This document shows positions 19,519 through 35,694 of a stretch of 64,000 bases of DNA, one piece after another. Numbering within the stretch: position 1 is the stretch's first letter; every line of letters begins with the position of its first letter. Source of the DNA: Cytophagaceae bacterium (GTDB taxonomy: Bacteria; Bacteroidota; Bacteroidia; Cytophagales; UBA9547); the NCBI GenBank assembly GCA_027488865.1, contig JAIYAU010000030.1, positions 1 to 64,000 of the forward strand, given 5' to 3'. The notes below the pieces were generated by a model that worked only from the letters and a program-made list of their open reading frames with translations, ran no database searches and was not told the DNA's origin. The position numbers and the translations under genes are program-made.

Positions 19519-21039
19519 TTAATCTACATTGTCATGTAGAAATTTATTGTTTCCAAGTATTTCGTTGTCGTCATTCAAATTAAAACGTGAAATACTGCGT
19601 TCAGATGAATGTGGTGTATCTTGAAGATTCACATTTTTACGTAAATACGCAGGGGTATTCATGCGATCCTTCAATTCCTCAGGCTTCATGCTACTCCATT
19701 GGGTGTTTACATTAAATTTATTGCTCAATTCTTTCAGCTTGGCAATTCTATTTTTGTTTTGCTCCTCCAGTTTTCGAGCCCTGTTCTCATTCAATAGTTC
19801 TTCTTCAAACAAGGTAGGTTGTTTTACTTCCTCCTTTTTGTCTTTAATAATGTATTGACTATCCAATTGCATCAAAAACTGCTCATTTTCGCGTTCTTTT
19901 TGTTTTTCGCGCAAAACTGGATCTTGAATTTCGTGATTGTAAGCCGCTACTATTGGGTCTGTAATAATAGGATTATTTACAATTTGAATGTTGGTGTCTT
20001 CGATAATCTGTTTTTTCTTGTTCGAATCAAGATCATAGACTGTTTTGGTAAAATACTGTGCGTTTCGTTCTTCAAAACCGGTAGCAATTACTGTCACTTT
20101 TACTTGATCACGAAGTAGTGGGTCTAGCACTTGGCCAAATTTCATTTCTGCTTCGTAGTCAGCCTTTTCGTACATAAATCCGGTAATTTGATCCATTTCG
20201 TCCATGGTTAGCTCTGGACTGTCACCATAAGAAACAGAGATTAGAATGTTTTTAGCTCCACTTACATCCGTATTATTAAGCAATGGTGAAGTAAGCGCAT
20301 CTTCTACTGCACGAATGGCTCTGTTAGCCCCTGATGCCGTGCCAGAACCCATTACAGCAGCTCCTGATTCTTTTAAAACGGTTCGAACGTCGTTAAAATC
20401 TACATTCACTTCGCCTGTAACCGTTATAATTTCTGCAATGCTTTTGGCAGCATTGGTTAAAATATTGTCTGCTTGAGCAAATGCCTCACGGATGGACAGG
20501 TTTCCGTAAATTTCCCTTAGTTTGTCATTAAGAATAACCAATACGGTGTCACAATATTGTTTCATCTCGCTAATTCCTTGATCAGCTTTCATTCTCTTTT
20601 TGGGCCCTTCAAATGCAAATGGAGCAGTAACGATACCTACTGTCAGGATATCAAGCTCTCTTGCAATTTTAGCAATAATAGGTGCCGCACCAGTGCCAGT
20701 TCCACCGCCCATACCTGCTGTAATAAACACCATTTTGGTATCAGTGCTTAGTAAATTTCGGATGTCTTCCTTGCTTTCCAATGCAGAGTTTTTTCCTACT
20801 TCTGGAATAGAGCCCGCACCTAGCCCTTCAGTCAAATTGGCCCCAATTTGTACTTTGTTGGGCACAGGGCTGCTCTTTAATGACTGGGCATCAGTGTTGC
20901 AAATAAAAAACTCTACGTCTTTTATTCCTTTGTTATACATATAGTTAACGGCATTGCTGCCTCCACCACCCACACCAATCACCTTTATGATTGATTTTTG
21001 GGTTTGTGGTAGTTCAAATTTGTAAGATACATTTAACAT
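19519..21039 (-). CDS. ftsZ: Cell division GTPase FtsZ
   Basis: The tubulin-like GTPase that forms the Z ring. From ATG 21039 it has 506 residues; a GTG two codons earlier is the alternative. GTP-binding signature GGGTGTG is at 111-117, with IGVGGGGSNAV at 21-31 and the synergy-loop region (NVDFNDV) near 215. The globular core ends near 330. A long charged linker (about 350-480) follows, as in other Bacteroidota, which have FtsZ longer than the 380-400 aa norm. The C-terminus ends in FLHDNVD; the conserved tail motif that binds FtsA may be the RKNVNLQDTPHSSERSISRF stretch. It is last in the dcw cluster and is followed by a strong terminator. Confidence 0.98.
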   Translation of the reverse strand: MLNVSYKFELPQTQKSIIKVIGVGGGGSNAVNYMYNKGIKDVEFFICNTDAQSLKSSPVPNKVQIGANLTEGLGAGSIPEVGKNSALESKEDIRNLLSTDTKMVFITAGMGGGTGTGAAPIIAKIARELDILTVGIVTAPFAFEGPKKRMKADQGISEMKQYCDTVLVILNDKLREIYGNLSIREAFAQADNILTNAAKSIAEIITVTGEVNVDFNDVRTVLKESGAAVMGSGTASGANRAIRAVEDALTSPLLNNTDVSGAKNILISVSYGDSPELTMDEMDQITGFMYEKADYEAEMKFGQVLDPLLRDQVKVTVIATGFEERNAQYFTKTVYDLDSNKKKQIIEDTNIQIVNNPIITDPIVAAYNHEIQDPVLREKQKERENEQFLMQLDSQYIIKDKKEEVKQPTLFEEELLNENRARKLEEQNKNRIAKLKELSNKFNVNTQWSSMKPEELKDRMNTPAYLRKNVNLQDTPHSSERSISRFNLNDDNEILGNNKFLHDNVD

Positions 21040-21097
21040 AAGCACGAAATTTATTTATATGAGTAATTAGATTATTTATCAATCAAATTTTTGGCTT

Positions 21098-22435
21098 TTA
21101 TTGATAATTAGTTTTGTCATCAAAATCATCAATTAACAATCCTTTGGTTCTTTCTAGCAAGGTTTTGAACAAATCTTTCCCAGGCAATTGCAGATCCTTT
21201 TTGGAAATTGTTTTAGTTGATAGATTTTTTGGAATTGTGCCATTTACCGTCGTTTTTTCATTGTAACGATTTTCTCGTTCGTCGACCGCTTGAAATCCAG
21301 CTAGCACCAACCCTACAGCAGTGGCGTACATTGGACTTTTTACAGCCTCAATTTTACTTTTTCCTAAATGTTCATTGGGATAACCAATTCTGGTGTCCAT
21401 ACCAGTGATGTATTCAAAGAGTTGCTTTAAATATTTAAGTTGAGACCCTCCTCCAGTAATTACTATACCGCCAGCAAGCTTTTTTTGGTAATTACTATAA
21501 TTAATTTCTGCCAAAACCAACTCAACAATCTCTTCCATTCTTGCTTGAATGATATTAGCTAGGTTTTTGATAGAAATTTCTTTCGGCTCTCTATTGCGAA
21601 GTCCTGGAATGGAGATGATTTCATTTTGATTGGCTTCAGCAGCTATGGCATGGCCAAACTTTACTTTCAGGAGTTCAGCTTGTTGCCCCATCACTTGTAA
21701 TCCTTCTTTAATATCTTGGGTAATAATGTTGCCTCCAAAAGGTATCACAGCAGTATGACGAATGATGCCATCATGAAAAATAGCCACATCTGTTGTACCG
21801 CCCCCAATATCAACCAAGACCACACCAGCTTCTTTCTCTTCTTCACTTAGAACAGCCATGCTTGAGGCAATTGGCTCAAGAATAAGATTGTCCGTTTCAA
21901 GACTTGCTCTTTTTACACACTTGTTAATATTGTTAATGGCCGAGGTGTGTGCCGTAATTATGTGAAAATCAGCTTCTATTCGTACACCAGACATTCCTAC
22001 CGGGTCTTTAATGCCATCTTCGTAGTCAACCGTGTAGTCTTGAGGCATAACATGAATTATTTCATTGCCTGGTTGCACCACAATTTTAAACATGTCTTGC
22101 ATCAATCGGTTGATGTCATTCACACTTATTTCATCGTCAGCGCCATTTCGGGTAATACTTCCATGGTGTTTCATGCTACGAATGTGTTGCCCAGCAATAC
22201 CCACATTAACCACAGCAATATCAATTCCAGCATTTTCACTGGCTTCTTTTATGGCCTTAGCAATAGCATCCACTGTTTTTTCAATGTTTACTACTACACC
22301 ACGTGTAACCCCTTCAGATACAGCCTTGCCCATTCCTAAAATCTCCAATTTTCCAAATTGGTTTTTTATTCCTACCAAGGCACAGATTTTGGTAGTTCCA
22401 ATGTCGAGTCCTACTACTATTTTATTTGTTTCCAT
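21098..22435 (-). CDS. ftsA: Cell division protein FtsA
   Basis: An actin-like ATPase of 445 aa that tethers FtsZ to the membrane. The N-terminal phosphate-1 motif VGLDIGTTKICALVG (about 8-22), the phosphate-2 motif VVLVDIGGGTTDVAIF (about 205-220), and the adenosine motif GGIVITGGGSQLKYL (about 325) are all present, with the FtsA-specific SHS2 (1C) domain between. The C-terminal end (KDLFKTLLERTKGLLIDDF) is amphipathic and likely the membrane-targeting helix. Its ATG overlaps the ftsQ stop by one base, so the two are translationally coupled. Confidence 0.96.
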   Translation of the reverse strand: METNKIVVGLDIGTTKICALVGIKNQFGKLEILGMGKAVSEGVTRGVVVNIEKTVDAIAKAIKEASENAGIDIAVVNVGIAGQHIRSMKHHGSITRNGADDEISVNDINRLMQDMFKIVVQPGNEIIHVMPQDYTVDYEDGIKDPVGMSGVRIEADFHIITAHTSAINNINKCVKRASLETDNLILEPIASSMAVLSEEEKEAGVVLVDIGGGTTDVAIFHDGIIRHTAVIPFGGNIITQDIKEGLQVMGQQAELLKVKFGHAIAAEANQNEIISIPGLRNREPKEISIKNLANIIQARMEEIVELVLAEINYSNYQKKLAGGIVITGGGSQLKYLKQLFEYITGMDTRIGYPNEHLGKSKIEAVKSPMYATAVGLVLAGFQAVDERENRYNEKTTVNGTIPKNLSTKTISKKDLQLPGKDLFKTLLERTKGLLIDDFDDKTNYQ

Positions 22436-23205
22436 TATTCTGTTATTATCTGATTGTCATATTTTAAACACACTCTTTCGTACCTATTCCAGCCCTTAAC
22501 TGGTACTATCTTGGTATAAAATAATTTAAGTTTGTCAAACTTGTCTGTTGGGTGATCAGGAAAGCCCATTTCAAAAATCTGCTTACCTATTTGCGGGTAG
22601 ATGGTCATTTCACCTTTGCCATTAATGTCTATTTCAGCCACAAGCGCTTTTAAGAATTTATCTTTATCTAATAACTGCAACACAGTAAAATATGGAGCAG
22701 TGGTATTGTCATTGGCAAAATCCTCAATCAAAAGTTTACCTGTGTGTATGCCGGTAATCACAGGAACACGGGCGGTAAACTGGTCAGACATTGGCAAAAT
22801 GGTGCCTTTATCACTAATATAAAAGTCTGAATCTTTGTGAATGACCCTTGCAATTGGCCTACACTGTTTTACATCAGCATATATTACCCCTTTTAAATCT
22901 TTATAAACTTGCACTTCATGCGCGAAGGTGTTTCGCTTAATTCTTTGCTCTAGTTCTTTCAAATTAATCTTAACTAGCTCTATTCCTTCTAGTTCTTCTT
23001 TGCCATGATTGCTCATTAAACTATGAACCTCCTTTTCATCTATGAAATAGATATCATCTTGGGTGTCAATGTTTATAACCACCGTCTGTACCAATTTTGT
23101 GGCTTGCTGAGTTATTGTAAATAGGATGGCCGCAACAAGCACTCCCAAAACAATAATGGCAATCACTCCTAGTTTTAAGTTTATTTTTGGTATTTTAAAT
23201 TTCAA
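22435..23205 (-). CDS. ftsQ: Cell division protein FtsQ
   Basis: A 256-aa bitopic division protein: a short cytosolic N-terminus (KFKIPKINLK), one transmembrane helix (about 12-33), then a periplasmic POTRA/beta region with IYADVKQCRPIARV and ISDKGTILPMSD, typical of Bacteroidota FtsQ. It connects early and late divisome proteins. The start must be TTG: two stops lie in frame upstream, and TTGA overlaps the murC stop by 4 nt. Confidence 0.9.
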   Translation of the reverse strand: MKFKIPKINLKLGVIAIIVLGVLVAAILFTITQQATKLVQTVVINIDTQDDIYFIDEKEVHSLMSNHGKEELEGIELVKINLKELEQRIKRNTFAHEVQVYKDLKGVIYADVKQCRPIARVIHKDSDFYISDKGTILPMSDQFTARVPVITGIHTGKLLIEDFANDNTTAPYFTVLQLLDKDKFLKALVAEIDINGKGEMTIYPQIGKQIFEMGFPDHPTDKFDKLKLFYTKIVPVKGWNRYERVCLKYDNQIITE

Positions 23206-24584
23206 TTTGATTTATCATTTAAATTAACCCTTAATATATTTTCTTTGATAGGTTCTATCATTCTATCAATATCACCTGCGCCAGCAGTAATAAACACATC
23301 AGTATCTGGTCTAATCGCCATTTCAGCCAAATCCTCCTTTTTACAAATCTTTTTATTTGGGTTTTTCATTAGCTTTAAAAGCATTTCTGAAGTTACCCCT
23401 GCTATTGGAAGTTCTCTTGCAGGATAGATGTCAAGTAGTAACACCTCGTCGGCAAGGTCAAGGCTTTGGGCAAATGCTAAGGCAAAATCCCTCGTGCGCG
23501 TAAAAAGGTGCGGTTGAAAAGCAATAGTTACTTTTTTGTTTGCAAACAAAGCTTTTGCCGAGGTTAATAATGCAGCCAACTCTTCAGGATGATGTGCATA
23601 ATCATCGATATAAATAATTGACCCTTCGGCTACTATATATTCAAATCTTCTTTTTACGCCTCTAAATTGCTCAAGCCCAGCTTTTAAGCTATTTGGTTGA
23701 ACGCCATATTCTATTGCTGCTGCAAGAGCGGCTGTGGCGTTTTCAACATTATGAAAACCTGGTATGGCCAGCTTAATATCCGCCAAGGAAATACCATTTT
23801 TGCCCTTAAAGTCAAAAACAAACATTCCGTCGGCAATTCGAATGTTTGTTGCATAATAATCAGCCTCTGATTTAATGGAATAAGAAACTATTTTATCAGA
23901 AGGCTTAAGTGCTTCAATAATCTCTTTCTTTACGATTACCGTAGTAGTTACTTGGGCAATAAAATCATTAAATGATTGTTTTACAGCGTTATGGTCACCA
24001 TAGATATCCAAATGATCTGCATCGATAGAAGTTACTATGGCAATTTTTGGATAAAGTGTTAAGAAAGAACGATCATATTCATCCGCCTCTACTACTACAG
24101 GGTCATTAGGGCCTCCAATTAACATGTTTGTGCCAAAGTTGGCAGAAATTCCGCCCATAAAAGCAGTACAATTGACCTCAGCATGGCGTAATAACTGCGT
24201 CACCATGGTCGTGGTGGTAGTTTTACCATGAGTGCCAGCTACGCCAATGGTTGGATAATTTTGTGTAATCAACCCTAACACCTGCGCTCTTTTGAGCATG
24301 TTATAATTGTGACCTTCAAAATATTGAACCTCTATATTATCCTTAGGCACGGCTGGTGTATATATAACCAAAGTTTCCTCTTTTTTATAAAATATGGTTG
24401 GAATACGCCCCACTTTGTCATCATAATGCACATCTATTCCCTCTGCAACCAACTGGTCGGTTAGCGTGGAACGGGTTTTGTCATAACCACCTACATGATA
24501 CCCTTGCACCTTAAACCAACGTGCTAAGGCCGACATGCCAATGCCTCCAATTCCCAAGAAATAAATGTTTTTATACTGTTTCAT
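23202..24584 (-). CDS. murC: UDP-N-acetylmuramate--L-alanine ligase
   Basis: A 460-aa Mur ligase that adds L-Ala to UDP-MurNAc in the cytosol. It opens with the Rossmann motif FLGIGGIGMSALARW, has the ATP-binding GVAGTHGKTTTTTMV (about 113-127), the metal/ATP site VVEADEYDRSFL, and IDDYAHHPEELAALL in the C-terminal domain. Motifs and length fit MurC rather than MurD or MurE. Confidence 0.97.
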   Translation of the reverse strand: MKQYKNIYFLGIGGIGMSALARWFKVQGYHVGGYDKTRSTLTDQLVAEGIDVHYDDKVGRIPTIFYKKEETLVIYTPAVPKDNIEVQYFEGHNYNMLKRAQVLGLITQNYPTIGVAGTHGKTTTTTMVTQLLRHAEVNCTAFMGGISANFGTNMLIGGPNDPVVVEADEYDRSFLTLYPKIAIVTSIDADHLDIYGDHNAVKQSFNDFIAQVTTTVIVKKEIIEALKPSDKIVSYSIKSEADYYATNIRIADGMFVFDFKGKNGISLADIKLAIPGFHNVENATAALAAAIEYGVQPNSLKAGLEQFRGVKRRFEYIVAEGSIIYIDDYAHHPEELAALLTSAKALFANKKVTIAFQPHLFTRTRDFALAFAQSLDLADEVLLLDIYPARELPIAGVTSEMLLKLMKNPNKKICKKEDLAEMAIRPDTDVFITAGAGDIDRMIEPIKENILRVNLNDKSN

Positions 24585-24624
24585 GTTTGTTTAACTATTG
24601 AAAGTTAATTTGTCAATTATTTAA

Positions 24625-24765
24625 TCAATCCGTCTTTTTCTTCAATCCTTGATTAAGAAACAAATGCTTTGAACAAATCTTAGAGGCACTTGCTTGCTTA
24701 GTTTCTTGCGACTGTTTTACTGGAAAACTTGCCACTACATTGGCTAATTTTACTCCTGTTTTCAT
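24625..24765 (-). CDS. Small ORF of 46 codons between murG and murC
   Basis: The minus-strand ATG at 24765 opens 46 codons (MKTGVKLANVVASFPVKQ, then a Lys/Ser-rich part, ending LNQGLKKKTD) to a TGA at 24625. It fills most of the 217-bp murG-murC gap in an otherwise tightly packed cluster. I do not recognise it. It has one cysteine and no membrane segment. It could be a real small protein, a leader peptide, or chance; A+T-rich spacing DNA would often contain more stops. Confidence 0.4.
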   Translation of the reverse strand: MKTGVKLANVVASFPVKQSQETKQASASKICSKHLFLNQGLKKKTD

Positions 24766-24801
24766 TTTTTAATAATTAGTTAAAACTCTATTAACAAAAT
24801 A

Positions 24802-25917
24802 CTATTTAATCTTAATCAACTTTAAAACCTCCTCAGCAATCTCTGATGCCGCATTTGGCTTTGCAAACTGATGTATATTTTTTCTCATTTCATCTTTTAG
24901 CTCATCGTTGTTCAAAAGCGCGAGCGCTTCAGGAATCAACTTCTCTCTGGCTTCAAGGTCTGCAACCAAAATCGCTGCCTTTTTACTTACCAATGACAAT
25001 GCATTCACCGTTTGATGGTCTTCTGCTGCAGTGGGCAAAGGCACTAAAATTGCCGGTTTTGCAACTATACAAAGCTCGCTTATGGACAATGCTCCTGCCC
25101 TAGAAATTACTATATCAGCTGCTGCGTAAGCCAAGTTCATGTGGGTGATAAAATCAAATACCTTCACATCTCCCCAGCCATTACTTAAAGGGCTAGGTTT
25201 TGTTAATTCTAAGGCCTTTTCATAAAAAGCCTTACCTGTTTGCCAAATTAACTGACATCCAGATTTTTGAATCAATGCTAAGTTTGAGGCCACACTTTCA
25301 TTAATGGTTCTCGCACCTTGGCTGCCACCAATCACCAAGATGGTTTTTCTCTCAGCGGACAACTTAAAATGAACCATGGCCGAAAGTTTTAGCAAATCAG
25401 CGTTTTGTATGTCTTGACGAACAGGATTTCCAGTAATGATAATTTTCCTTTTTGGAAAAAACTTATCCATATTTGGATAGGCCACACATATTTTTTTTGC
25501 CCTACCAGAAAGAAGTTTGTTGGTAATACCTGCATAACTATTTTGTTCTTGTATTAATGTTGGTACTCCCAATGATGCAGCTGCATATAACATCGGGCCA
25601 CTGGCATATCCACCAACACCAATAGCCACATCTGGCTTGAAGCTTTTAACAATCTTATGGGCTTTTAAGAGGCTATTAATTAATTTAAAGGGTAAAGTCA
25701 GATTTTTAAGCAAATTTTTACGTTGAAATCCTGCAATATCCAAGCCTTCAATTTTATAACCATTTGCAGGTACTTTTTCCATTTCCATGCGACCAATTGC
25801 TCCTACAAATAGAATTTCTATTTCGGGGTTCTTAGCTCGTAAAGCATCGGCAATAGCAATCGCAGGGTAGATATGTCCACCTGTTCCTCCACCACTTATG
25901 ATTACCTTTATAGCCAT
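24802..25917 (-). CDS. murG: UDP-N-acetylglucosamine--LPS-type N-acetylmuramyl transferase MurG
   Basis: A 371-aa GT-B glycosyltransferase that adds GlcNAc to lipid I to make lipid II on the inner face of the membrane. The glycine-rich loops are clear: GGGTGGHIYPAIAIADAL near the start, GVGGYASGPMLYAA (about 96-109) and LVIGGSQGARTINESV (about 190-205). The UDP-GlcNAc site ISRAGALSISELCIVAKPAILVPLP lies in overlapping parts at about 270-295. The gene is 14 bp downstream of ftsW. Confidence 0.97.
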   Translation of the reverse strand: MAIKVIISGGGTGGHIYPAIAIADALRAKNPEIEILFVGAIGRMEMEKVPANGYKIEGLDIAGFQRKNLLKNLTLPFKLINSLLKAHKIVKSFKPDVAIGVGGYASGPMLYAAASLGVPTLIQEQNSYAGITNKLLSGRAKKICVAYPNMDKFFPKRKIIITGNPVRQDIQNADLLKLSAMVHFKLSAERKTILVIGGSQGARTINESVASNLALIQKSGCQLIWQTGKAFYEKALELTKPSPLSNGWGDVKVFDFITHMNLAYAAADIVISRAGALSISELCIVAKPAILVPLPTAAEDHQTVNALSLVSKKAAILVADLEAREKLIPEALALLNNDELKDEMRKNIHQFAKPNAASEIAEEVLKLIKIK

Positions 25918-25931
25918 TTTATTTATGCTAA

Positions 25932-27083
25932 TTATGATTTTACAATTTCACCGTTAGAACCAAACTCTTCCCCTTCGCCTTTACTTACACTTATAATAAT
26001 GCCAATAGAAATACCAGTAAACAACAAAGACGTACCACCCATACTAAGCAATGGCAGTGGTTGTCCTGTGATAGGACCTAGCCCTACGGCCACTCCCATA
26101 TTAATAAGTGCTTGAATCACAATCATAAAACTTAAGCCTGCTGACAATAAACCTCCAAAAGCGCGTTCGCTATTCTGTACAGTTATCATTCCTCGGTAGA
26201 GCAATAAAAGAAATAACAGCAATACGATTATCCCTCCAACCATGCCCGTTTCTTCTATGATACTTGCATAAATAAAATCAGAATATGGATGAGGTAAAGA
26301 ATCACAAGCCACACAATTGCCAAATCCTCTGCCCATAATATTACCACCAGCAATGGCAATATGTGACTGTTGCGCTTGGTAAGGCATTTTATCAGGATCT
26401 GACATGGTTTCTGCGAAGGATTTTATCCTGTTTACCGCCGTGCCTAATCGCTGACCTACAGCTAAAGCCACGCTAAAAAACAAAAGACTTACCACACATA
26501 ACATCAACAGATATTTAACAGGCACACGACCAATAAACATGAGCAACATGCAGGTAGCAAACATCATAGCAGCAGTAGAAATATTACTTAAGGCAATAGC
26601 TCCGCAAATGGCACCACACCATAGAAGCATTGGTACCAAAGTTTCTTTGATGTTATCAATCTCCTTTTGTTTTTTTGCCAACATACTAGCCAAATTGGCT
26701 ATAAGCGCAAACTTGGCTAAGTCAGAAGGCTGAAAAGTGATTCCTAACCCTGGTATGGCCAACCACCGTGATGCGTCGTTTACACTTGTGCCAAACTTCC
26801 ATGAAATGATCAGCAACGGCAATGAAATCCATAAAGCAACTTGAGATATTTTAGAATAATATCTGTAGTCTATTTTATGTGCAAGCCACATCGCCACAAA
26901 ACCCAAAAACATATAACCTGTGTGTTTTATAAGATAATATTCGGTATTGCCCCCCATCTTTTTAAATGCCAAAGCACCAATAGCGCTATAAACAATTAAG
27001 ATGGAAATCAACCCTAAACTCAACACCACAAACCAGATGATTGGGTCACCTCCAAGATTTTTATCAAACCAACGTTTTAACAT
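25932..27083 (-). CDS. ftsW: Peptidoglycan glycosyltransferase FtsW (SEDS family)
   Basis: A 383-aa SEDS polymerase with about 10 transmembrane helices. Conserved SEDS loops visible include NDASRWLAIPGLGITFQPSDLAKFA (in parts, about 103-125), the extracellular loop QQSHIAIAGGNIMGRGFGN, SDFIYASIIEETGMVGG with the glutamates, and MGVAVGLGPITGQPLPLLS. It polymerises lipid II at the septum with the PBP encoded at 31309. The C-terminal tail is short and acidic. Confidence 0.97.
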   Translation of the reverse strand: MLKRWFDKNLGGDPIIWFVVLSLGLISILIVYSAIGALAFKKMGGNTEYYLIKHTGYMFLGFVAMWLAHKIDYRYYSKISQVALWISLPLLIISWKFGTSVNDASRWLAIPGLGITFQPSDLAKFALIANLASMLAKKQKEIDNIKETLVPMLLWCGAICGAIALSNISTAAMMFATCMLLMFIGRVPVKYLLMLCVVSLLFFSVALAVGQRLGTAVNRIKSFAETMSDPDKMPYQAQQSHIAIAGGNIMGRGFGNCVACDSLPHPYSDFIYASIIEETGMVGGIIVLLLFLLLLYRGMITVQNSERAFGGLLSAGLSFMIVIQALINMGVAVGLGPITGQPLPLLSMGGTSLLFTGISIGIIISVSKGEGEEFGSNGEIVKS

Positions 27084-27093
27084 ATATTCTTTC

Positions 27094-28476
27094 TTAAACC
27101 TTAAGTTCCATTTGTAATGCTAAAACTGCTTCCTTAAACTTATTACCTCTATCTTCATAATTTTTGAACAAATCGAAGCTTGCGCAACAAGGAGAAAGCA
27201 AAACTATGTCTCCAGATTTGCCCAATGTTAAGGCCAATTTCACGGTTTCAACTATATTTTGAGACTCATTAATAACTGGAATTATCCCTTTAAATGACTC
27301 TTTTAATTTGTCCGAATCTTTGGTAAGGCAAATAAGTGCTTTTACTTTCCCTATGACCACTTTGTGAAGCGCTGTGTAATCATTTCCTTTATCTGTACCG
27401 CCAGCTATCCAAATAATAGGTTCTTTATATGCGTCTAAAGCATACCAAGCAGAATCCACATTGGTGGCCTTGCTGTCATTAATAAACTTGATGCCATTAA
27501 TCTCAGCTACTAGTTGCATTCTATGCGCTGCATTTTCAAAAGTTGCAAATGCTGCCTCTATTTGTGAGGCATTCAAACCTAGTTTTACACCAATCAAAGA
27601 GGCAACCATCATGTTGTACACATTGTGTTTGCCTTTTAAAACTGCAGAGTTCAAATCTATAAATGTCTCTTCGTTGTCAATCTGTATGGTAATTCCTTCT
27701 TCGTCACCACACGCCCCATCTAAGTCATCGGGATAAATGCTAAAGGGTAGCTCTTCAGCATCCGTCTCAAAGTCTGGCAATGTATTTTCTATTAGTTCAC
27801 TATCAATGCCGTAGATTAAAGTGCATTGCTCGTCCATATTTTGTGCAATTCTAAATTTGGACGCCACATATTTTTCTATTTTATAATCGTATCTATCCAA
27901 GTGATCAGGGGTAATATTGGTAATTACGCCTATGTCTGCCTTAAAATCATACATTCCGTCCAATTGAAACGAGCTTAGTTCTAACACATAAATTGGTTCA
28001 TCGGAATTGATATCTTTCTCTTTATTTTTACATTCTTCATAAACCGCTTTGGCAAAACTCTCTCCAATATTGCCAGCCAACACCACACTCATTCCTCCAG
28101 ATTGGAGCAAATGGTAAGTAAGTAATGTTGTAGTAGTTTTGCCATTAGTTCCAGTGATGCAAATCTTTTTGGCTGAGGTATATCTGCCAGCGAACTCTAT
28201 TTCTGAAACAACAGGTATCTTCTTTTCTTTAAGTGCTTTTATTAGAGGGGTTTTGTCAGGTATGCCAGGGCTTTTAACTGCTTCACAGGCATTTAAAATC
28301 AAATCCTCGGTATGCTTTCCTTCTTCAAAGGCAATATTTTCCTCGCTCAAGACTTTTTTGTACTTGTCTTGAATAACACCCATGTCAGAGACAAATACCT
28401 CAAACCCTTTAGCTTTTGCTAAAAGTGCGGTACCTGTACCACTTTCACCTGCCCCTAAAATGACCAATCTTTTCAT
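27094..28476 (-). CDS. murD: UDP-N-acetylmuramoylalanine--D-glutamate ligase
   Basis: A 460-aa Mur ligase that adds D-Glu. It begins VILGAGESGTGTALLAKAKG and has the ATP site ICITGTNGKTTTTLLTY (about 111-127) and the C-terminal signature HRMQLVAEINGIKFINDSKATN with the D-S-K-A-T-N motif typical of MurD. An acidic insertion (about 235-262, with DDLDGACGDEEG) makes it a little longer than the E. coli enzyme. Ends 11 bp before ftsW. Confidence 0.97.
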   Translation of the reverse strand: MKRLVILGAGESGTGTALLAKAKGFEVFVSDMGVIQDKYKKVLSEENIAFEEGKHTEDLILNACEAVKSPGIPDKTPLIKALKEKKIPVVSEIEFAGRYTSAKKICITGTNGKTTTTLLTYHLLQSGGMSVVLAGNIGESFAKAVYEECKNKEKDINSDEPIYVLELSSFQLDGMYDFKADIGVITNITPDHLDRYDYKIEKYVASKFRIAQNMDEQCTLIYGIDSELIENTLPDFETDAEELPFSIYPDDLDGACGDEEGITIQIDNEETFIDLNSAVLKGKHNVYNMMVASLIGVKLGLNASQIEAAFATFENAAHRMQLVAEINGIKFINDSKATNVDSAWYALDAYKEPIIWIAGGTDKGNDYTALHKVVIGKVKALICLTKDSDKLKESFKGIIPVINESQNIVETVKLALTLGKSGDIVLLSPCCASFDLFKNYEDRGNKFKEAVLALQMELKV

Positions 28477-28528
28477 TTACCTTCCTTCAACTAAATTTTT
28501 CTTTTTACATTAATTTCAGTGGATATTA

Positions 28529-29749
28529 CTAGCGTATTTTCAAGGTGGACAATGTTAAAACAGCAAGCAAAATCCCTATGATCCAAAAACGAGTCACTAT
28601 CTTCGGTTCTGAGTGACCGAGTTTTTGGTAATGATGGTGCAATGGTGACATTTTGAATATTCTTCTGCCTTCACCGTATTTCTTTTTAGTATATTTAAAA
28701 TAAGATACTTGTATTATAACCGAAAGATTTTCAATAAGAAATACTCCACAAAGTACTGGAATTAGTAATTCCTTTCTTATGGCCAAAGCCAAAACTGCAA
28801 TAGTACCTCCTAATGACAAACTTCCAGTATCTCCCATAAATACTTGTGCTGGATAAGTATTATACCATAAGAAACCAACACAAGCACCTACAAATGCAGC
28901 ACAGAAAATTACCAGCTCGCCGGTATTGGGTATGTACATGATATTGAGATAGTCCGCAAAAATGGTATTACCCGATACATAGGCCAAGATGGCAATAGTA
29001 AGACCCACAATGGCAGAGATACCAGCGGCTAGCCCGTCGATGCCATCTGTAATATTAGCACCATTAGATACGGCAGTAATTATAAATATTACCACCAGTG
29101 TGTAAATGGCCCAAGTGTAATCAGGACAAAGGCCTATCCAGTCGAGTAAGTCACAATAGTCAAACTCATTATCTTTTAAAAACGGAATGGTAGTTATAGA
29201 AGAATGCACATCTACATAATCTTCTGATACTTTTGAGGTTGTGTAAATTCCTGAATCTCCAAGTGCATATTCTCTTACAACAACGTCATTGTCAAAATAT
29301 AACATTAATCCTACAAACAAACCCAAAGCAACCTGACCAGCGATTTTGAACTTGCCCGCCAAGCCTTCCTTATTTTTCTTAAATACTTTGATGTAATCAT
29401 CTAAAAATCCAATTAGCCCTAGCCACAAAGTGGTTACCAACATTAAAATGATGTAGATATTAAGCACTTTGGCAAAAAGCAAGGTTGGGATGATGATGGA
29501 GGCTATAATGATGATACCACCCATGGTAGGAGTGCCTTGTTTTTGCATCTGACCTTCCAAGCCCAAGTTACGAATCGATTCGCCCACTTGCAGTGCGCGC
29601 AACATATTAATCAATCGTTTTCCAAATACAGCGCCTATTACCAACGACAAAATAATTGCTAAAAAAGCCCTGAAGGAGATGTACTTAAACAAGCCAGCTC
29701 CAGCGAGATCATAATTTTTTTCTAAAAAATCAAATAAGTAGTAGAACAC
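28529..29749 (-). CDS. mraY: Phospho-N-acetylmuramoyl-pentapeptide-transferase
   Basis: A 406-aa polytopic transferase that makes lipid I. Visible hallmarks: [14 protein letters not shown] (about 72-85), the first aspartate pair [16 protein letters not shown] (about 115-130), the [13 protein letters not shown] loop, and the final metal loop [12 protein letters not shown]. It is about 45 residues longer than the usual 360 because of an insertion (about 165-210) between the Asp pair and the NxxxxxD loop, as seen in other Bacteroidota MraY. The start is GTG; no ATG precedes the first helix. Confidence 0.97.
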
Positions 29750-29823
29750 GTTAGTATCGAATTATGTAGTTTAAATTTCTTTTATTTCACATTTTAAACG
29801 AGCTGTTCCAAACCAAATTCGGT

Positions 29824-31287
29824 TTATTTAAGGTCATTTATTACTTTAATCAGTTCCTCTTTGTCATCAAAAGGGTGTTTAACTCCTTTTATTTCTTGAT
29901 AATTTTCATGCCCTTTGCCTGCAACTAAAATGATATCATCTTTGCTAGCTAGCATACACGCAGTTTTAATGGCCTCACGCCTATCAATTATTTTAAGCAC
30001 CTTTTTATAATTCACTGCGCTTACTCCTTTCATCATTTCTTCAATTATTGCTTCAGGCTCTTCAGAGCGAGGATTGTCAGAAGTGATGATTACTTTATCG
30101 CTCAGTTTACAAGCGATTTCGGCCATAATTGGTCTTTTTGTTTTATCTCTATCACCTCCACAGCCAACTACGGTTATTACCTTTCTTACTCCTGTCTCCT
30201 TAAATGTTGATATTGTTTCTAATACATTTTTAAGCGCATCTGGGGTATGTGCATAGTCCACAATAGCCGTAATGCCATCATTACCAATGATTTGTTCAAA
30301 TCTACCTTTGGCAGTTTCTATGGCGCTTAACTGGGTTAAGACCTCCATTGGATCTTCGCCCAACAAACAAGCAGCGCCATAAATACCAACTAAGTTATAA
30401 GCATTAAATTCTCCTATGAGTCTAAACCATGCTTGCTGTCCGTTAATATCCAGTTCTAAGCCTTCCAATGTGTTGGAAACTATTTTTCCCTTGTAATCAG
30501 CAGGTGTTTTTAAGGCAAAGGTATATTTAGATGCCTTAGAATTTTGAAGCATAATTTTACCCCTTTTATCATCCACATTCACAAGTGCAAATGCCGAAGC
30601 TGGCAAGTCATCAAATAATTTCTTTTTGGCTGCTATATAGTTGTCAAATGTGCCGTGGTAGTCAAGATGATCGTGTGTGATATTTGAAAACATCGCTCCC
30701 GTAATTTGTATGCCAGCCATGCGTTCTTGATGAATGGCATGTGAACTTGCCTCCATAAAACAATGTGTACAACCTTTATCGATCATCAGTCTCAGGAGTT
30801 GATTGATCGCTAAGGCATCAGGCGTGGTGTGTGTGGAAGGAATAATTTCCTCGTTAATTTGATTTTGCACTGTGCTCAACAACCCCACATTGTAACCTAA
30901 AGCACGAAAAAGCTTAAATAATAAGGTGGCGGTGGTAGTTTTACCATTAGTGCCTGTTACAGCCACTATTTTCAACTTTTCAGAAGGATTATTATAAAAG
31001 TTGGCGGCCAAATGACCTAATGCCACAGCGCTATTTTTTACTTGTACAAAAGCGACATTATCTGGCGTATTAAGCGGTAATTTTTCACAAACAATGGCTA
31101 TTGCTCCATTTTCAATGGCTTTATTGATATAGTCATGACCGTCCACTACTGTGCCAGAAGTAGCCACAAATAGTGAGCCTTTAGTCACCTTTCTAGAATC
31201 AAAAGCAATTGCACTAACCTCCGTTTCTGGATTTCCAGAGGTTGACAATAATGAAACTTTGTTTAATATGTCTTTTAATAAAGTCAA
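29824..31287 (-). CDS. murE: UDP-MurNAc-L-Ala-D-Glu--meso-DAP ligase
   Basis: A 487-aa Mur ligase that adds the third stem residue. ATP site VAVTGTNGKTTTATLL is at about 108-123. The DNPR motif at 404-407 (SDNPRSEEPE) is the meso-diaminopimelate specificity mark, so peptidoglycan here should be of the DAP type. The start codon is TTG (TTG ACT TTA TTA), since no ATG is available near the expected N-terminus. Confidence 0.96.
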   Translation of the reverse strand: MTLLKDILNKVSLLSTSGNPETEVSAIAFDSRKVTKGSLFVATSGTVVDGHDYINKAIENGAIAIVCEKLPLNTPDNVAFVQVKNSAVALGHLAANFYNNPSEKLKIVAVTGTNGKTTTATLLFKLFRALGYNVGLLSTVQNQINEEIIPSTHTTPDALAINQLLRLMIDKGCTHCFMEASSHAIHQERMAGIQITGAMFSNITHDHLDYHGTFDNYIAAKKKLFDDLPASAFALVNVDDKRGKIMLQNSKASKYTFALKTPADYKGKIVSNTLEGLELDINGQQAWFRLIGEFNAYNLVGIYGAACLLGEDPMEVLTQLSAIETAKGRFEQIIGNDGITAIVDYAHTPDALKNVLETISTFKETGVRKVITVVGCGGDRDKTKRPIMAEIACKLSDKVIITSDNPRSEEPEAIIEEMMKGVSAVNYKKVLKIIDRREAIKTACMLASKDDIILVAGKGHENYQEIKGVKHPFDDKEELIKVINDLK

Positions 31288-31308
31288 ACTTTAAACTGTT
31301 AAATTTTT

Positions 31309-33402
31309 TTAGCCTAATTTCAAATAAATAACTTCACCTTTTCCGGCCCTTACGCCAGGCAGAATCGACTGCTCTTGCACCCGGCCTTTGCCATCAAACC
31401 GAACTTTAATTTTTTTATTTTCAAGTAGATACAGTGCATCTCTCAGGGTCATCCCCACAACATTGGGGATCAGGTTTTCTACTTGGCTTCTGCCTTGCCA
31501 CATAATGGCATTATTCACAGGCACCGCAGCAACCCACTCTTCTTGGCCTGTGTAATGGTTAGATACCCCGAGGGTGTTACATAGGTATTGTAAATCTTTT
31601 ACATTACCGGCCCTAAGGAGAGGAAACTCGTCTTTTTTAGCTTCTATCTCTTGCTCAGAAATATCTCGGTGCATTTCAAAATCTAAAGAATATATCTTGT
31701 CTGCAACCTCCTTAAAAACGGGTGCAGCCACATCAGCGCCATATTGTGAAAAACCTTTAGGACTATCAATTACCACAATACAGCTGTATTTTGGCTTGTC
31801 AGCGGGGAAAAATCCACAAAATGAGGTATAGTAGTTTTTGATATATTTGCCTCCTTTTATCTTTTGAGCAGTTCCCGTTTTGCCCGCAATCAGGTAATTA
31901 TTTGTTTTGATATTATCAGCAGTACCATGATCTACAACAGCTTGAAGCATTTTATTAAGTTTATCCAAAGTTTTGTCAGAACATAGTTTTTCCACTAAAA
32001 CCTCGGTTTTGTATTCTTCAATAATTTTGTCTGATTGCCATACTTTTTTTACGATCATGGGCTTTATCATTTTTCCGCCATTAGCCACCCCATTGTAGAA
32101 CGAGAGTGTGTGCAGTGGAGACATGCGCATTTCATAGCCAATACTCATCCAAGGCAACGAAACAGGACTCCAAGTACTATCTTTTGGAGACGGTAAATAA
32201 GGCTGTGCTTCGCCCTTCATTTGAAAATCGATTGGTTTATCTAAGTGAAAGCTTTTAAGATAGTTTACATATTTTAATGGATTTTTAGCAAACTCTTGAT
32301 AAATCAATTTGGAAGTACCTACATTCGAAGATTTGGCAAAAACATCTATTATGGCCAAGGAACCATAAGCATGCGCGTCTTTCATGGTTCTGTCAGAGAA
32401 TTTGGTTTCTCCATTCCCGGTGTTAATGGTATCATAAAGATCTACCTCTTTTTCTTCCATTAAGGCCATCATGGAGGCGAGCTTAAAAGTGGAACCTGGA
32501 TCGGTGAGGCCTTGATTTCCTACGGCATAGTTGTAGTTTTCGCTGTATCCACCTTGTTTGTTTTTACCCAAGTTAGCTATAGCTTTAATTTCGCCAGTGG
32601 CCACTTCCATCAAAACTACACAGCCGTAATCTGCGTCATGTTTTAATAAATGGCTGTTTAAGGCATCTTCCGCCACATCCTGTAAATTAATATCGATGGT
32701 GGTTTGGATGTCGTAACCTTGTTCTGGTTTTATTTCTGTATCATCGTGTATGGGCTTCCAGTTGTTGCCAGCCATTTTTTGAAATAAAGCTTTTCCTGCC
32801 CTACCTGCCAGCCTACTATTATAGCTAATTTCAAGTCCTGCTCCAGCGCGATCTTCATTTACAAAACCAACGGTGCGATAAGCCAATTGTCCAAATGGCA
32901 TATAACGTTTGTCCATTTTTTCAAATATGATTCCACCTTTAAGCCTTCCCTGTCTTATCAAAGGCCATTGCATCATAGTTTTCTTTTGTTGAAAATTTAA
33001 TGTTTTGTGGCTAAGAACCAGATAGCGTTTAGAATCTTTGCGAGCAGCAATAATTTTTCGTTTGTAATCGGTGGCTGATTTTTCTTGGTAAAATTGTGCA
33101 AGTTGCAATGATAAGGAATCGATACTTGCTTTGAACAGCTCATCGCTAGCCACTGTTGGGTCCATAACTAGCTTATAAAACGGTAATGAGGTGGCTAACA
33201 AGCTTCCGTTATCGGAATAAATGTTCCCACGAGTTGCTTTTACAGTCATATACCGAAGATTTACCTCTTCTGCCATCTTGCGCCATTTGCTTCCTTCCAA
33301 GAGTTGAATTTTACCAATTTTCCAGACAATAAGCATAGCAAACACCGCCACTGCAAGAAAGGCCAATCGGACGCGAAGCAATATGGATTTTTTAATATTC
33401 AA
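31309..33402 (-). CDS. ftsI: Septal penicillin-binding protein (FtsI/PBP3 type) with PASTA domain
   Basis: A 697-aa class-B PBP, the septal transpeptidase. One N-terminal membrane anchor (about 10-28) is followed by the dimerisation domain (RGNIYSDNGSLLATSLP). The transpeptidase motifs are S304-TFK, SSN (358-360) and a KTGTAQK near 515. A single PASTA domain closes the protein (about 635-697, with LIPNVVGMTLRDALYLLENK), a common Bacteroidota arrangement. The start must be TTG at 33402, because a stop codon lies two codons upstream and the next ATG would cut into the membrane helix. Confidence 0.95.
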   Translation of the reverse strand: MNIKKSILLRVRLAFLAVAVFAMLIVWKIGKIQLLEGSKWRKMAEEVNLRYMTVKATRGNIYSDNGSLLATSLPFYKLVMDPTVASDELFKASIDSLSLQLAQFYQEKSATDYKRKIIAARKDSKRYLVLSHKTLNFQQKKTMMQWPLIRQGRLKGGIIFEKMDKRYMPFGQLAYRTVGFVNEDRAGAGLEISYNSRLAGRAGKALFQKMAGNNWKPIHDDTEIKPEQGYDIQTTIDINLQDVAEDALNSHLLKHDADYGCVVLMEVATGEIKAIANLGKNKQGGYSENYNYAVGNQGLTDPGSTFKLASMMALMEEKEVDLYDTINTGNGETKFSDRTMKDAHAYGSLAIIDVFAKSSNVGTSKLIYQEFAKNPLKYVNYLKSFHLDKPIDFQMKGEAQPYLPSPKDSTWSPVSLPWMSIGYEMRMSPLHTLSFYNGVANGGKMIKPMIVKKVWQSDKIIEEYKTEVLVEKLCSDKTLDKLNKMLQAVVDHGTADNIKTNNYLIAGKTGTAQKIKGGKYIKNYYTSFCGFFPADKPKYSCIVVIDSPKGFSQYGADVAAPVFKEVADKIYSLDFEMHRDISEQEIEAKKDEFPLLRAGNVKDLQYLCNTLGVSNHYTGQEEWVAAVPVNNAIMWQGRSQVENLIPNVVGMTLRDALYLLENKKIKVRFDGKGRVQEQSILPGVRAGKGEVIYLKLG

Positions 33403-33427
33403 GTGTTACTTACTTTCGTTTATCTTT

Positions 33428-33832
33428 TTAAGGTAAATTTTCTGTTTCTTCTGTTTTTACCAACATTTTATATGGAGGTGTTTTACTTTCTTCTAAACTA
33501 AAAGCTTGTACTTTTTTTGCCACTTCTGATTGTTTGCTATCATACATATAGCTTGCTTTCAATGTGGTATAATCGGCACGTAAATCTTCAACCTCAGTTT
33601 TTAACTTTTCTATTCTTCTTATGTTTTTGTCCGCAAAATGACTGTTTGCAATATATATCAGTGCAACAAAAGTGAGAAAAACCACTTTAGGAGCGTGTTT
33701 CATGGGTATTCCATTCCCAAAAAACCTGTCAAGATTTAGTGCCCCATCCAACAAGGAAAAAAGGGATTTCCCATTAGACTCCTTAGTGTCTGTTGATGAA
33801 TCTTCTTTTTGTTTAAATGAATTTTGAGCCAC
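33428..33832 (-). CDS. FtsL-like division protein
   Basis: A 134-aa bitopic protein between rsmH and ftsI, the place of ftsL in dcw clusters. A cytosolic N-terminus of about 45 residues is followed by a hydrophobic helix (about 48-62, PKVVFLTFVALIYIAN), then a coiled-coil segment (KNIRRIEKLKTEVEDLRADYTT in parts). Sequence is not close to E. coli FtsL, so the name rests on position and topology. The start is GTG. Confidence 0.8.
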   Translation of the reverse strand: MAQNSFKQKEDSSTDTKESNGKSLFSLLDGALNLDRFFGNGIPMKHAPKVVFLTFVALIYIANSHFADKNIRRIEKLKTEVEDLRADYTTLKASYMYDSKQSEVAKKVQAFSLEESKTPPYKMLVKTEETENLP

Positions 33833-33848
33833 TATATATCTTTAGTTT

Positions 33849-34766
33849 TTAGTTATTCAATTTTTCTGCAATTCTCAACTTGGAGCTTCTTGCCCTGTTG
33901 TTAATTTTTATCTCATCTTCAGATGCTTCAATTACCTTCCTATTTACTGCTTTTAAGGGCTTACTTTCGTTTCCAAATAGATCTTTTTCAACTTCGCCGT
34001 GGAACTTACCTTTGGCAATGAAATTTTTTACCAAACGGTCTTCAAGAGAATGATAACTCATTACCACCAACCTGCCCCCTGGTTTTAATATTTCAGCAGC
34101 CTGTACGAGCATTTCTTCCAAGGCCTTCAATTCATCATTTACTTCTATTCTCAATGCCTGAAATACCTGCGCCAAATATTTATTTTCCTCTCGTTTTGGC
34201 ACTAACGGCCCAATAATTGTCTTTAGTTGAGTAATTGTTTCAATTTTATTATTTACCCTAGCGCTTACTATTTTAGCTGCCAGTGTTTTAGCATTAGTTA
34301 CTTCTCCGTACATTCCAAATATCCTATGCAGGTCTTTCTCTAAGTAGGTATTAAGAATTTTTTGAGCAGTTAGTGTTCCGTTTTGATTCATCCGCATATC
34401 CAAGGGGGCATCAAAACGAATTGAAAAACCTCGTTCGGCAGTGTCAAATTGATGAGATGAAACTCCTAAGTCTGCCAATATCCCATCTACTTCTGTTACC
34501 CCATGCAGCCTTAAATACTTTTTCATATACCTAAAATTGGTATCAATAAGGGTAAACTTATTGCTTGAGAAATCTAAACTATTTGTCTGTGCGTCAATGT
34601 CTTGATCAAAACCATACAAATGACCTTCTGTGAGCTTTTTCACGATTTCTCTACTGTGTCCTCCACCACCAAAAGTCACATCCACATATACTCCGTTAGG
34701 CATAATATTGAGCCCATCAATACATTGATCAAGCATGACAGGAATATGGTATGGAATGTTAGTCAT
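33849..34766 (-). CDS. rsmH: 16S rRNA (cytosine(1402)-N(4))-methyltransferase
   Basis: A 305-aa SAM-dependent methyltransferase (former MraW). SAM-binding start VYVDVTFGGGGHSREIV (about 27-43), the family motif DGILADLGVSSHQFD, RGFSIRFDAPLDMRMNQ and the C-terminal VMSYHSLEDRLVKNF are all visible. It methylates C1402 of 16S rRNA in the ribosomal P site. Its ATG overlaps the mraZ stop by 8 nt. Confidence 0.97.
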   Translation of the reverse strand: MTNIPYHIPVMLDQCIDGLNIMPNGVYVDVTFGGGGHSREIVKKLTEGHLYGFDQDIDAQTNSLDFSSNKFTLIDTNFRYMKKYLRLHGVTEVDGILADLGVSSHQFDTAERGFSIRFDAPLDMRMNQNGTLTAQKILNTYLEKDLHRIFGMYGEVTNAKTLAAKIVSARVNNKIETITQLKTIIGPLVPKREENKYLAQVFQALRIEVNDELKALEEMLVQAAEILKPGGRLVVMSYHSLEDRLVKNFIAKGKFHGEVEKDLFGNESKPLKAVNRKVIEASEDEIKINNRARSSKLRIAEKLNN

Positions 34767-35217
34767 TGCTTTTGCTTCCTAAATGTTTTTGCATCAGGGT
34801 GGCAAGCTCTTTCTGGTCTTTCACCAGACTTTGTTCATACTTTTCAGCATTCCAAATCTCAAGTCTATTTCCTAGACCGACCATAATAGCATCTTTGGTA
34901 ATTTCAGCAAACTCAAGCAAACGCTTAGGAATCAAGAATCTACCTAAGTTGTCAAGTTCAATTTCGTTCGTATTTCTTAAAAAATTTCTTTGAACAAAGG
35001 CTGTGTTTTCATCAAATTCATTTAATGAGGTAATCTTTTCTGCCACTTTTTCCCACTCTGGAAGTGTGTAAACAAGCAGACAAGGGTCTGATGGACTCTT
35101 AGTAACAAAGATAGCTTGTGCGTTATTTTCAGGTAAACGTGCCTTCACACGAGAAGGAAGCAACATTCTGCCCTTCGCGTCTACAGTACATTCATATTCG
35201 CCTGAAAAATAAGCCAT
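34759..35217 (-). CDS. mraZ: Transcriptional regulator MraZ
   Basis: A 152-aa protein with two tandem AbrB-like (SpoVT/MraZ) domains: YECTVDAKGRMLLPSRVKARL (in parts, about 6-26) and NEIELDNLGRFLIPKRLLEF (about 85-104), each with the D-x-x-G-R core. MraZ oligomers bind repeated boxes in their own promoter and repress the dcw cluster. Three matching boxes are found 64-88 bp upstream of this ATG (35281-35305). Confidence 0.96.
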   Translation of the reverse strand: MAYFSGEYECTVDAKGRMLLPSRVKARLPENNAQAIFVTKSPSDPCLLVYTLPEWEKVAEKITSLNEFDENTAFVQRNFLRNTNEIELDNLGRFLIPKRLLEFAEITKDAIMVGLGNRLEIWNAEKYEQSLVKDQKELATLMQKHLGSKSND

Positions 35218-35251
35218 TGTAAGGATAGTTCTTTAGTAATTAACCTAGCTA

Positions 35252-35281
35252 CAAAGGTACGGAATCAAAATAAAAAATCAA
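35252..35281 (-). promoter_or_regulatory. Promoter of the dcw cluster
   Basis: Minus strand: TTG (35281-35279), 19-nt spacer, TACCTTTG (35259-35252), a full match to the Bacteroidota vegetative consensus. It lies about 35 nt before the mraZ ATG. Confidence 0.8.
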
Positions 35282-35305
35282 CCACTTTTTACCATTTTTT
35301 ACCAC
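35281..35305 (-). promoter_or_regulatory. Three MraZ boxes at 10-bp spacing
   Basis: Minus strand GTGGT-AAAAA-ATGGT-AAAAA-GTGGT: three TGG-containing pentamers, start to start exactly 10 bp, the arrangement bound by MraZ in other bacteria. The last box touches the -33 TTG, so occupancy would block the promoter. Confidence 0.75.
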
Positions 35306-35694
35306 AATATTCCAAATTGATTCAATTAATTTAGAATATATCTTTAAGTGCATAGATTTTATCAATTATTAAATGTGGATTAACTCTTACAATTTTACTA
35401 ATTAATTGAAAATATGATGAATATATAATTTGTTGAAAAGTGGGTGAAAGTGGAAGGCGTATATTGAGGCTAGTTTCCAATTTAAGTTGAGTAAGTAGTC
35501 CAATCCGACAATGTTAGCCTTAGGTTAGAACAATTTGGAGAGAGTGGCAACTGTTTTCAGAGTTATAAATTAATGGAACCATGAGTTGACTAATTTTTAT
35601 TTTCTTAACAATTTGATAATTGTTCATATTTTGGTTTAATAGATGTAATCCTTATTTTTATACCATTCATTTAATAATTTCAACCGATAACCTT
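35306..35694. other. Intergenic region between mraZ promoter and a divergent secreted-protein gene
   Basis: About 390 bp. One pair of GTGG words on the plus strand (35440-35444 and 35450-35454, 10-bp spacing) resembles two further MraZ half-boxes in the opposite orientation. Nothing else is recognisable. A plus-strand frame upstream of 35695 has no ATG. Confidence 0.45.

Follow-up and report, generated by a model that had tools for sequence, protein, structure and literature searches.

The mraZ locus and its promoter region

The window, by which we mean the whole 64-kb stretch of DNA that was analysed, contains a dcw cluster of 13 genes, mraZ to ftsZ, which all lie on the minus strand from 35217 down to 19519. 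The dcw gene names were assigned from NCBIfam and Pfam matches; the FtsI- and FtsW-like proteins score under the NCBIfam curated cut-offs, and ftsQ, for which NCBIfam and Pfam gave no match, was named by its position. The MraZ protein resembles solved MraZ chains in the PDB. Intergenic gaps are mostly 74 nt or less, or replaced by overlaps; the gap between murG and murC measures 217 nt, and no terminator-like site was seen in it. It is plausible that the 13 genes are carried on one transcript. The murG-murC gap also holds a 46-aa open frame (24625-24765, minus strand), and the divergent neighbour of mraZ (35620-37149, plus strand) has a weak, just sub-threshold match to a type IX secretion sorting tail. 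The features of the locus are as follows:

19519..34766, minus strand: rsmH, ftsL, ftsI, murE, mraY, murD, ftsW, murG, murC, ftsQ, ftsA and ftsZ
34759..35217, minus strand: mraZ, 152 aa, matching Pfam MraZ and TIGR00242 (116.9 bits against a curated cut-off of 98.35)
35247, minus strand: predicted +1, with TACCTTTG counted as -12 to -5
35252..35259, minus strand: -7 element TACCTTTG, which fits the TAnnTTTG sigma-A box
35278-35260, minus strand: spacer of 19 nt between TTG and the -7 element
35279..35281, minus strand: -33 element TTG, whose first T is the last T of box 3
35281..35285, minus strand: MraZ box 3, GTGGT, starting 26 nt upstream of the first base of the -7 element
35291..35295, minus strand: MraZ box 2, ATGGT, conserved across relatives
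35301..35305, minus strand: MraZ box 1, GTGGT, its position conserved across relatives
35431..35439, minus strand: DnaA-box-like 9-mer TTTTCAACA, adjoining the inverted array
35440..35454, plus strand: inverted two-box array, GTGGG-TGAAA-GTGGA, at a distance of 135 bp (G to G) from the main array's box 1

On the minus strand the array reads GTGGT, AAAAA, ATGGT, AAAAA, GTGGT and TG, followed by 18 nt, a G and then TACCTTTG. The first bases of the boxes (35305, 35295 and 35285) keep a 10-bp period and both spacers are AAAAA, which bears out the boxes, A5 spacers and exact period of the original prediction. When both strands of the window were scanned, a triple with the full score (24 of 24) was found nowhere else, and the single other match scoring at least 21 is the same array one repeat out of register. 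The pattern RTGGKN5RTGGKN5RTGG matches the 4.33-Mb assembly once, at this array, and the backwards pattern matches three times. The weight therefore falls on conservation at the same place and not on the rarity of the pattern by itself. The array combines the marks of an MraZ operator, namely at least three direct repeats with a GTG/TGG core at a 10-bp period, a location in the promoter of mraZ and the dcw cluster, and orthologous positions in relatives.

A MraZ-like pair inside mraZ (35056-35042, minus strand, GTGGGAAAAAGTGG) was considered as an intragenic auxiliary operator and rejected. Its codons spell EWEKVA, and of the family members compared only G000 and G002 keep it intact, so it is probably a coding coincidence.

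The -7 element of the window conforms to TANNTTTG, and TACCTTTG with TTG 19 nt upstream resembles the Bacteroidota sigma-A promoter, for which a TAnnTTTG box was mapped at -12 to -5 in Flavobacterium psychrophilum (PMC9723704, excerpt). Counted in this way, transcription would start near 35247 and the box starts would fall near -58, -48 and -38; between TACCTTTG and the ATG of mraZ at 35217 there are 34 nt. The -33 TTG, the 19-nt spacer and the -7 element lie where they had been placed beforehand, TTG overlapping box 3 by one T. The description as a consensus promoter needs qualification: the window has a good promoter of the Bacteroidota type, but its TTG, which in a departure from this type is shared with an operator box, stands at that place in just 12 of 28 genomes of the order, and in the other orders of the class TTG is outside the twelve commonest trinucleotides at -33. 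Since TTG is so scarce in relatives, the promoter may not rely on it.

Conservation, placement and probable regulatory role of the array

A search with the window protein found MraZ in 24 of 39 relatives, and TIGR00242 detected it in 281 of 296 genomes of the phylum and 129 of 139 of the class. TIGR00242 was unmatched in both f11 genomes sampled (G019, G037) and in ten genomes of family f43, where MraZ may have been lost or may have strongly diverged. Its named relatives place the window genome among Cytophagales MAGs. One locus labelled Bifidobacterium breve (L004, CALPQG020000057.1) has an mraZ 73% identical to the Cytophagales one and looks mislabelled or contaminated.

We compared 240 mraZ upstream regions, 29 from the window's order, 147 from other orders of the class and 64 from other classes of the phylum. 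Three boxes were counted as an array when they reached a score of 22 or more out of 24 in the 300 nt before mraZ, and the null expectation was obtained by first-order Markov resampling of each upstream region. Such arrays precede mraZ in 27 of 29 regions of the order (null 0.0), in 107 of 147 regions of the other orders (null 0.1) and in 27 of 64 regions of the other classes (null 0.4). The boxes are thus conserved upstream of mraZ in other Bacteroidota, and the absence from relatives that would have refuted the original prediction is not seen. The three repeats are very likely a genuine, widely conserved operator of the MraZ type, to which MraZ is predicted to bind. A search of the open-access literature, with subscription papers mostly outside its scope, found no report on MraZ operators in Bacteroidota.

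The placement of the array relative to the promoter was followed in two ways. In an unconstrained scan, 20 of the 27 genomes scanned in the order have TANNTTTG exactly 26 nt from the first base of box 3; the remaining offsets are 16 (three genomes), 25 (one) and 27 (one), and none further was found within -60 to +90. The same scan in other orders of the class placed TANNTTTG at 15 or 16 in 27 of 107 cases, plus 12 scattered matches; the 27 cases are so few because the -7 element there often ends in A or C. An anchored scan, with a looser -7 element and offsets restricted to 14-17 and 25-27, yielded an operator in 194 of 209 regions. Here the offset is 26 in 22 of 28 regions of the order, the window's value being the commonest; elsewhere in the class 152 of 166 regions show 15 or 16. 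A box thus lies near offset 26, over -33, in both sets: in the window's order this is box 3, whereas the other orders of Bacteroidia, whose arrays sit one repeat further downstream, have box 2 there. The register between a box and -33 is therefore fixed across Bacteroidia. The boxes appear to follow the -10 in the sister classes of the phylum: of the 45 regions (out of 64) that reached both thresholds, 39 have their best sigma-70-like -10 beginning 4 to 18 nt ahead of box 1, a raw count without shuffled control.

We regard the three boxes as the operator of the mraZ/dcw promoter, where MraZ bound over -33 would repress transcription by negative autoregulation, and give this reading a probability of roughly 0.7. 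MraZ is encoded directly downstream of the array and scores above the TIGR00242 cut-off. An oligomeric MraZ ring would bind the boxes from a single face of the helix. Since the -33 element is overlaid by box 3, binding of MraZ and of sigma region 4 should be mutually exclusive at this site, and accumulating MraZ would repress mraZ together with however many genes are transcribed with it. In view of the overlap, occlusion of sigma would be the simplest mechanism, in line with the repressor of E. coli (PMC8475190, excerpt).

Against repression it can be argued that the position from about -58 to -34 would equally suit an activator. Class-II activators usually occupy the position which the array covers, and MraZ, as an activator or dual regulator, could there recruit RNA polymerase and replace a poor -33 element. 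The -33 trinucleotide is TGG in four genomes of the window's family (G001, G005, G006, G008) and mostly TAA, GTA or GGG elsewhere in the class; furthermore, MraZ of Mycoplasma gallisepticum is linked to more FtsZ in an excerpt of PMC8475190. Activation is retained as an alternative that is compatible with the position and the poor -33 elements, but we consider it quite unlikely: in the other orders the third box lies inside the -33/-7 spacer (offset 15 or 16 in 152/166), which is normally obstructive, and the same excerpt describes E. coli MraZ as a repressor of its own cluster. It is improbable that a regulator other than MraZ reads the array; HsdC, a small regulator of Mollicutes, has related direct repeats (PMC5282649, excerpt), but the array stands at mraZ across the phylum and has the MraZ period and GTG core of other phyla. 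That AT-rich intergenic DNA with occasional GTGG produced the repeats by chance or through its composition, for which the comparable genome-wide frequency of the backwards pattern might speak, has a negligible probability, as it is contradicted by the conservation before mraZ against near-zero nulls and by the fixed offset to the -7 element.

Inverted upstream arrays and the DnaA-box-like element

Opposite-strand pairs of the GTGGN6GTGG type occur upstream of the operator in 45 of 147 regions from other orders of the class (null 1.8), 4 of 29 from the window's order (null 0.3) and 10 of 64 from other classes (null 0.4). Additional same-strand pairs number 3, 0 and 2, respectively (nulls 0.65, 0.15 and 0.65). 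To this set we added pattern searches over 396 genomes of the class, in which 28 and 53 genomes matched, chance matches included; ten fetched loci without mraZ (L285-L290, L311, L312, L333, L334) were dropped, as were three matches by eye (G502:C4, G633:C128, G487). Among the 194 anchored regions, 77 have an inverted array, which is no estimate of frequency because 33 of the 209 regions had been fetched for having one. Within the window's family the inverted array is present in G000 and G002 alone among seven members (G000, G001, G002, G003, G005, G006, G008), the G002 counterpart (L034) being the only one in the six other members examined. With the pair in two of seven family members, its function in the window genome is doubtful.

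In the class, the inverted arrays usually lie 60-120 bp upstream of the main operator, at distances that are periodic near 11 bp. Before the second of the pattern searches we predicted that distances would cluster at 93-96, 103-106 and 114-116 and avoid 88-91, 98-101 and 108-112. Of 40 distances from that search, 29 fell into the predicted ranges (17, 12 and 0 at 114-116), seven into avoided ranges (six of them from one genus) and four at 97, 107 and 117 (twice). This unanchored set took in G481, G457, G454, G453, G614 and G523, matches that may not lie at mraZ and that the anchored set omits. The class near 105 bp was rejected as a separate helical step at the loci read: with box 1 degenerate at these loci, distances anchored on the -7 element come to 94-97. 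Part of the success of the prediction therefore reflects the 10-bp step of the array, and the claim of phasing rests on the anchored distances and not on the unanchored set. Anchored distances, counted once per family and value, cluster at 61-62, 70-74, 82-86 and 93-97, with others at 99, 101, 117, 118 and beyond. For all 35 of them the best period is 11.3 (R 0.56, smoothed-null P 0.0003), and for the 26 up to 130 bp it is 11.4 (R 0.65, 0 of 4000); R at a period of 10.5 is lower (0.40 and 0.46), and in these figures families are not fully independent and the 10-bp array step blurs the period. DNA loops in vivo show repeats near 11 bp. The inverted pair of the window fits the mean phase at 10.5 bp and misfits at 11.2. 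A role of the inverted array as operator of a divergent promoter is not supported, since TANNTTT on the strand of the array within 90 nt gave 11 matches for 45 arrays, one at 16, and no preferred offset.

The second element beside the main operator is a DnaA-box-like 9-mer. The form TTTTCAACA, which adjoins the inverted array in the window, is also the 9-mer most often seen on the 5' side of the main operator elsewhere in the class. Among the anchored regions of other orders, 109 of 134 have TTWTNMACA, on either strand, in the 30 nt preceding box 1 (null 2.35), against 3 of 28 in the window's order (null 0.5); the motif was picked after viewing the sequences, and the excess is far beyond what such selection could produce. 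It is found in 45 of 53 families, and the AAAGTTWTYAACA element keeps a nearly fixed distance from box 1, 11 or 12 nt in 63 cases and 21 or 22 in 16. Around inverted arrays, the 9-mer occurs in the surrounding 70 nt in 10 of 44 cases, the window excluded (null 1.5).

The consensus of the DnaA box is TTATNCACA, in either orientation and clustered at the origin. Most copies of the 9-mer read TTTTCAACA, TTATTAACA or TTATCAACA; a minority, often reversed, has canonical DnaA-box forms or reads TTTTCCACA or TTATCCACA. Upstream of dnaA itself, which is not evidently at the origin in most genomes tested, enrichment in 28 genomes is weak (TTWTNCACA 10 against 3.7 expected, TTWTNAACA 14 against 7.5). 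Since the element also fits the palindrome GTTN3AAC in 60 of 134 regions (null 0.9), a binder other than DnaA may be responsible.

The conserved inverted site and the DnaA-box-like element of relatives may be signs of DNA looping and of a coupling between chromosome replication and division. One might conceive the dcw promoter of Bacteroidia as a composite switch, with an MraZ loop between two operators, an input of the DnaA type and a shifted arrangement in the window's lineage, a proposal which we regard as tentative and rather doubtful as a whole. An MraZ ring would bridge the operator at -33 and the inverted operator, usually 60-120 bp upstream, and the helical phase, kept in steps of about 11 bp, would allow a small repression loop. 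Outside the window's order, DnaA at the box beside box 1 would compete with MraZ or assist it, and the initiation of replication would thereby gate the expression of division and cell-wall genes. In the window's lineage, the operator would have moved one repeat upstream, with a weaker and more distant inverted array that has its own DnaA-like box. The class-wide inverted array and DnaA-like element are a more surprising part of our results than the placement of the operator. If functional, they would offer a molecular handle on the coupling of replication and division in Bacteroidia.

Comparison with described MraZ operators

Few bacterial regulators are as conserved as MraZ, whose role in division is unsettled. 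It binds repeated motifs with a GTG core (PMC5282649, excerpt), and octamers are reported for Mollicutes in excerpts of PMC5282649 and PMC7761207. The window array is, judged by its sequence, a genuine member of the MraZ operators with a placement unlike that of the described ones, and MraZ binding is predicted. The Mollicutes site (AAAGTGKN3)3 likewise has three repeats, a GTG core and a 10-nt period, and differs in its GTGK core from the GTGGT of the window (PMC5282649, excerpt; Fisunov 2016 as cited there). The Burkholderia cenocepacia promoter PmraBc, which is bound by MraZ, shares the repeated GTG core, the 10-bp period and the position in a dcw promoter, but has four repeats that lie downstream of the -10, as in E. 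coli, and overlap the start (PMC7761207, excerpt).

The mraZ promoter of E. coli (Pmra) also carries three GTGG-type boxes with an exact 10-bp period directly before mraZ; in K-12 we read GTGGG at -44, -34 and -24 from the ATG. By our own reading of that sequence, box 1 begins 13 nt downstream of the first base of TAAACT, the -10, whereas in the window box 3 lies on -33. The E. coli type of placement, downstream of the -10 and over the start, is not a defining feature of MraZ operators and is absent from the window, whose boxes lie over -33. Of the earlier claim that the geometry known from other phyla is kept, the repeat period inside the array stands and the placement relative to the core promoter does not, since the boxes of E. 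coli and Burkholderia follow the -10 and Bacteroidia have a box on -33. The inner geometry of the operator has thus been preserved while its placement changed along with the type of promoter. This makes the mechanism testable in genetically tractable Bacteroidota, with a -33 box rather than a roadblock at the start.
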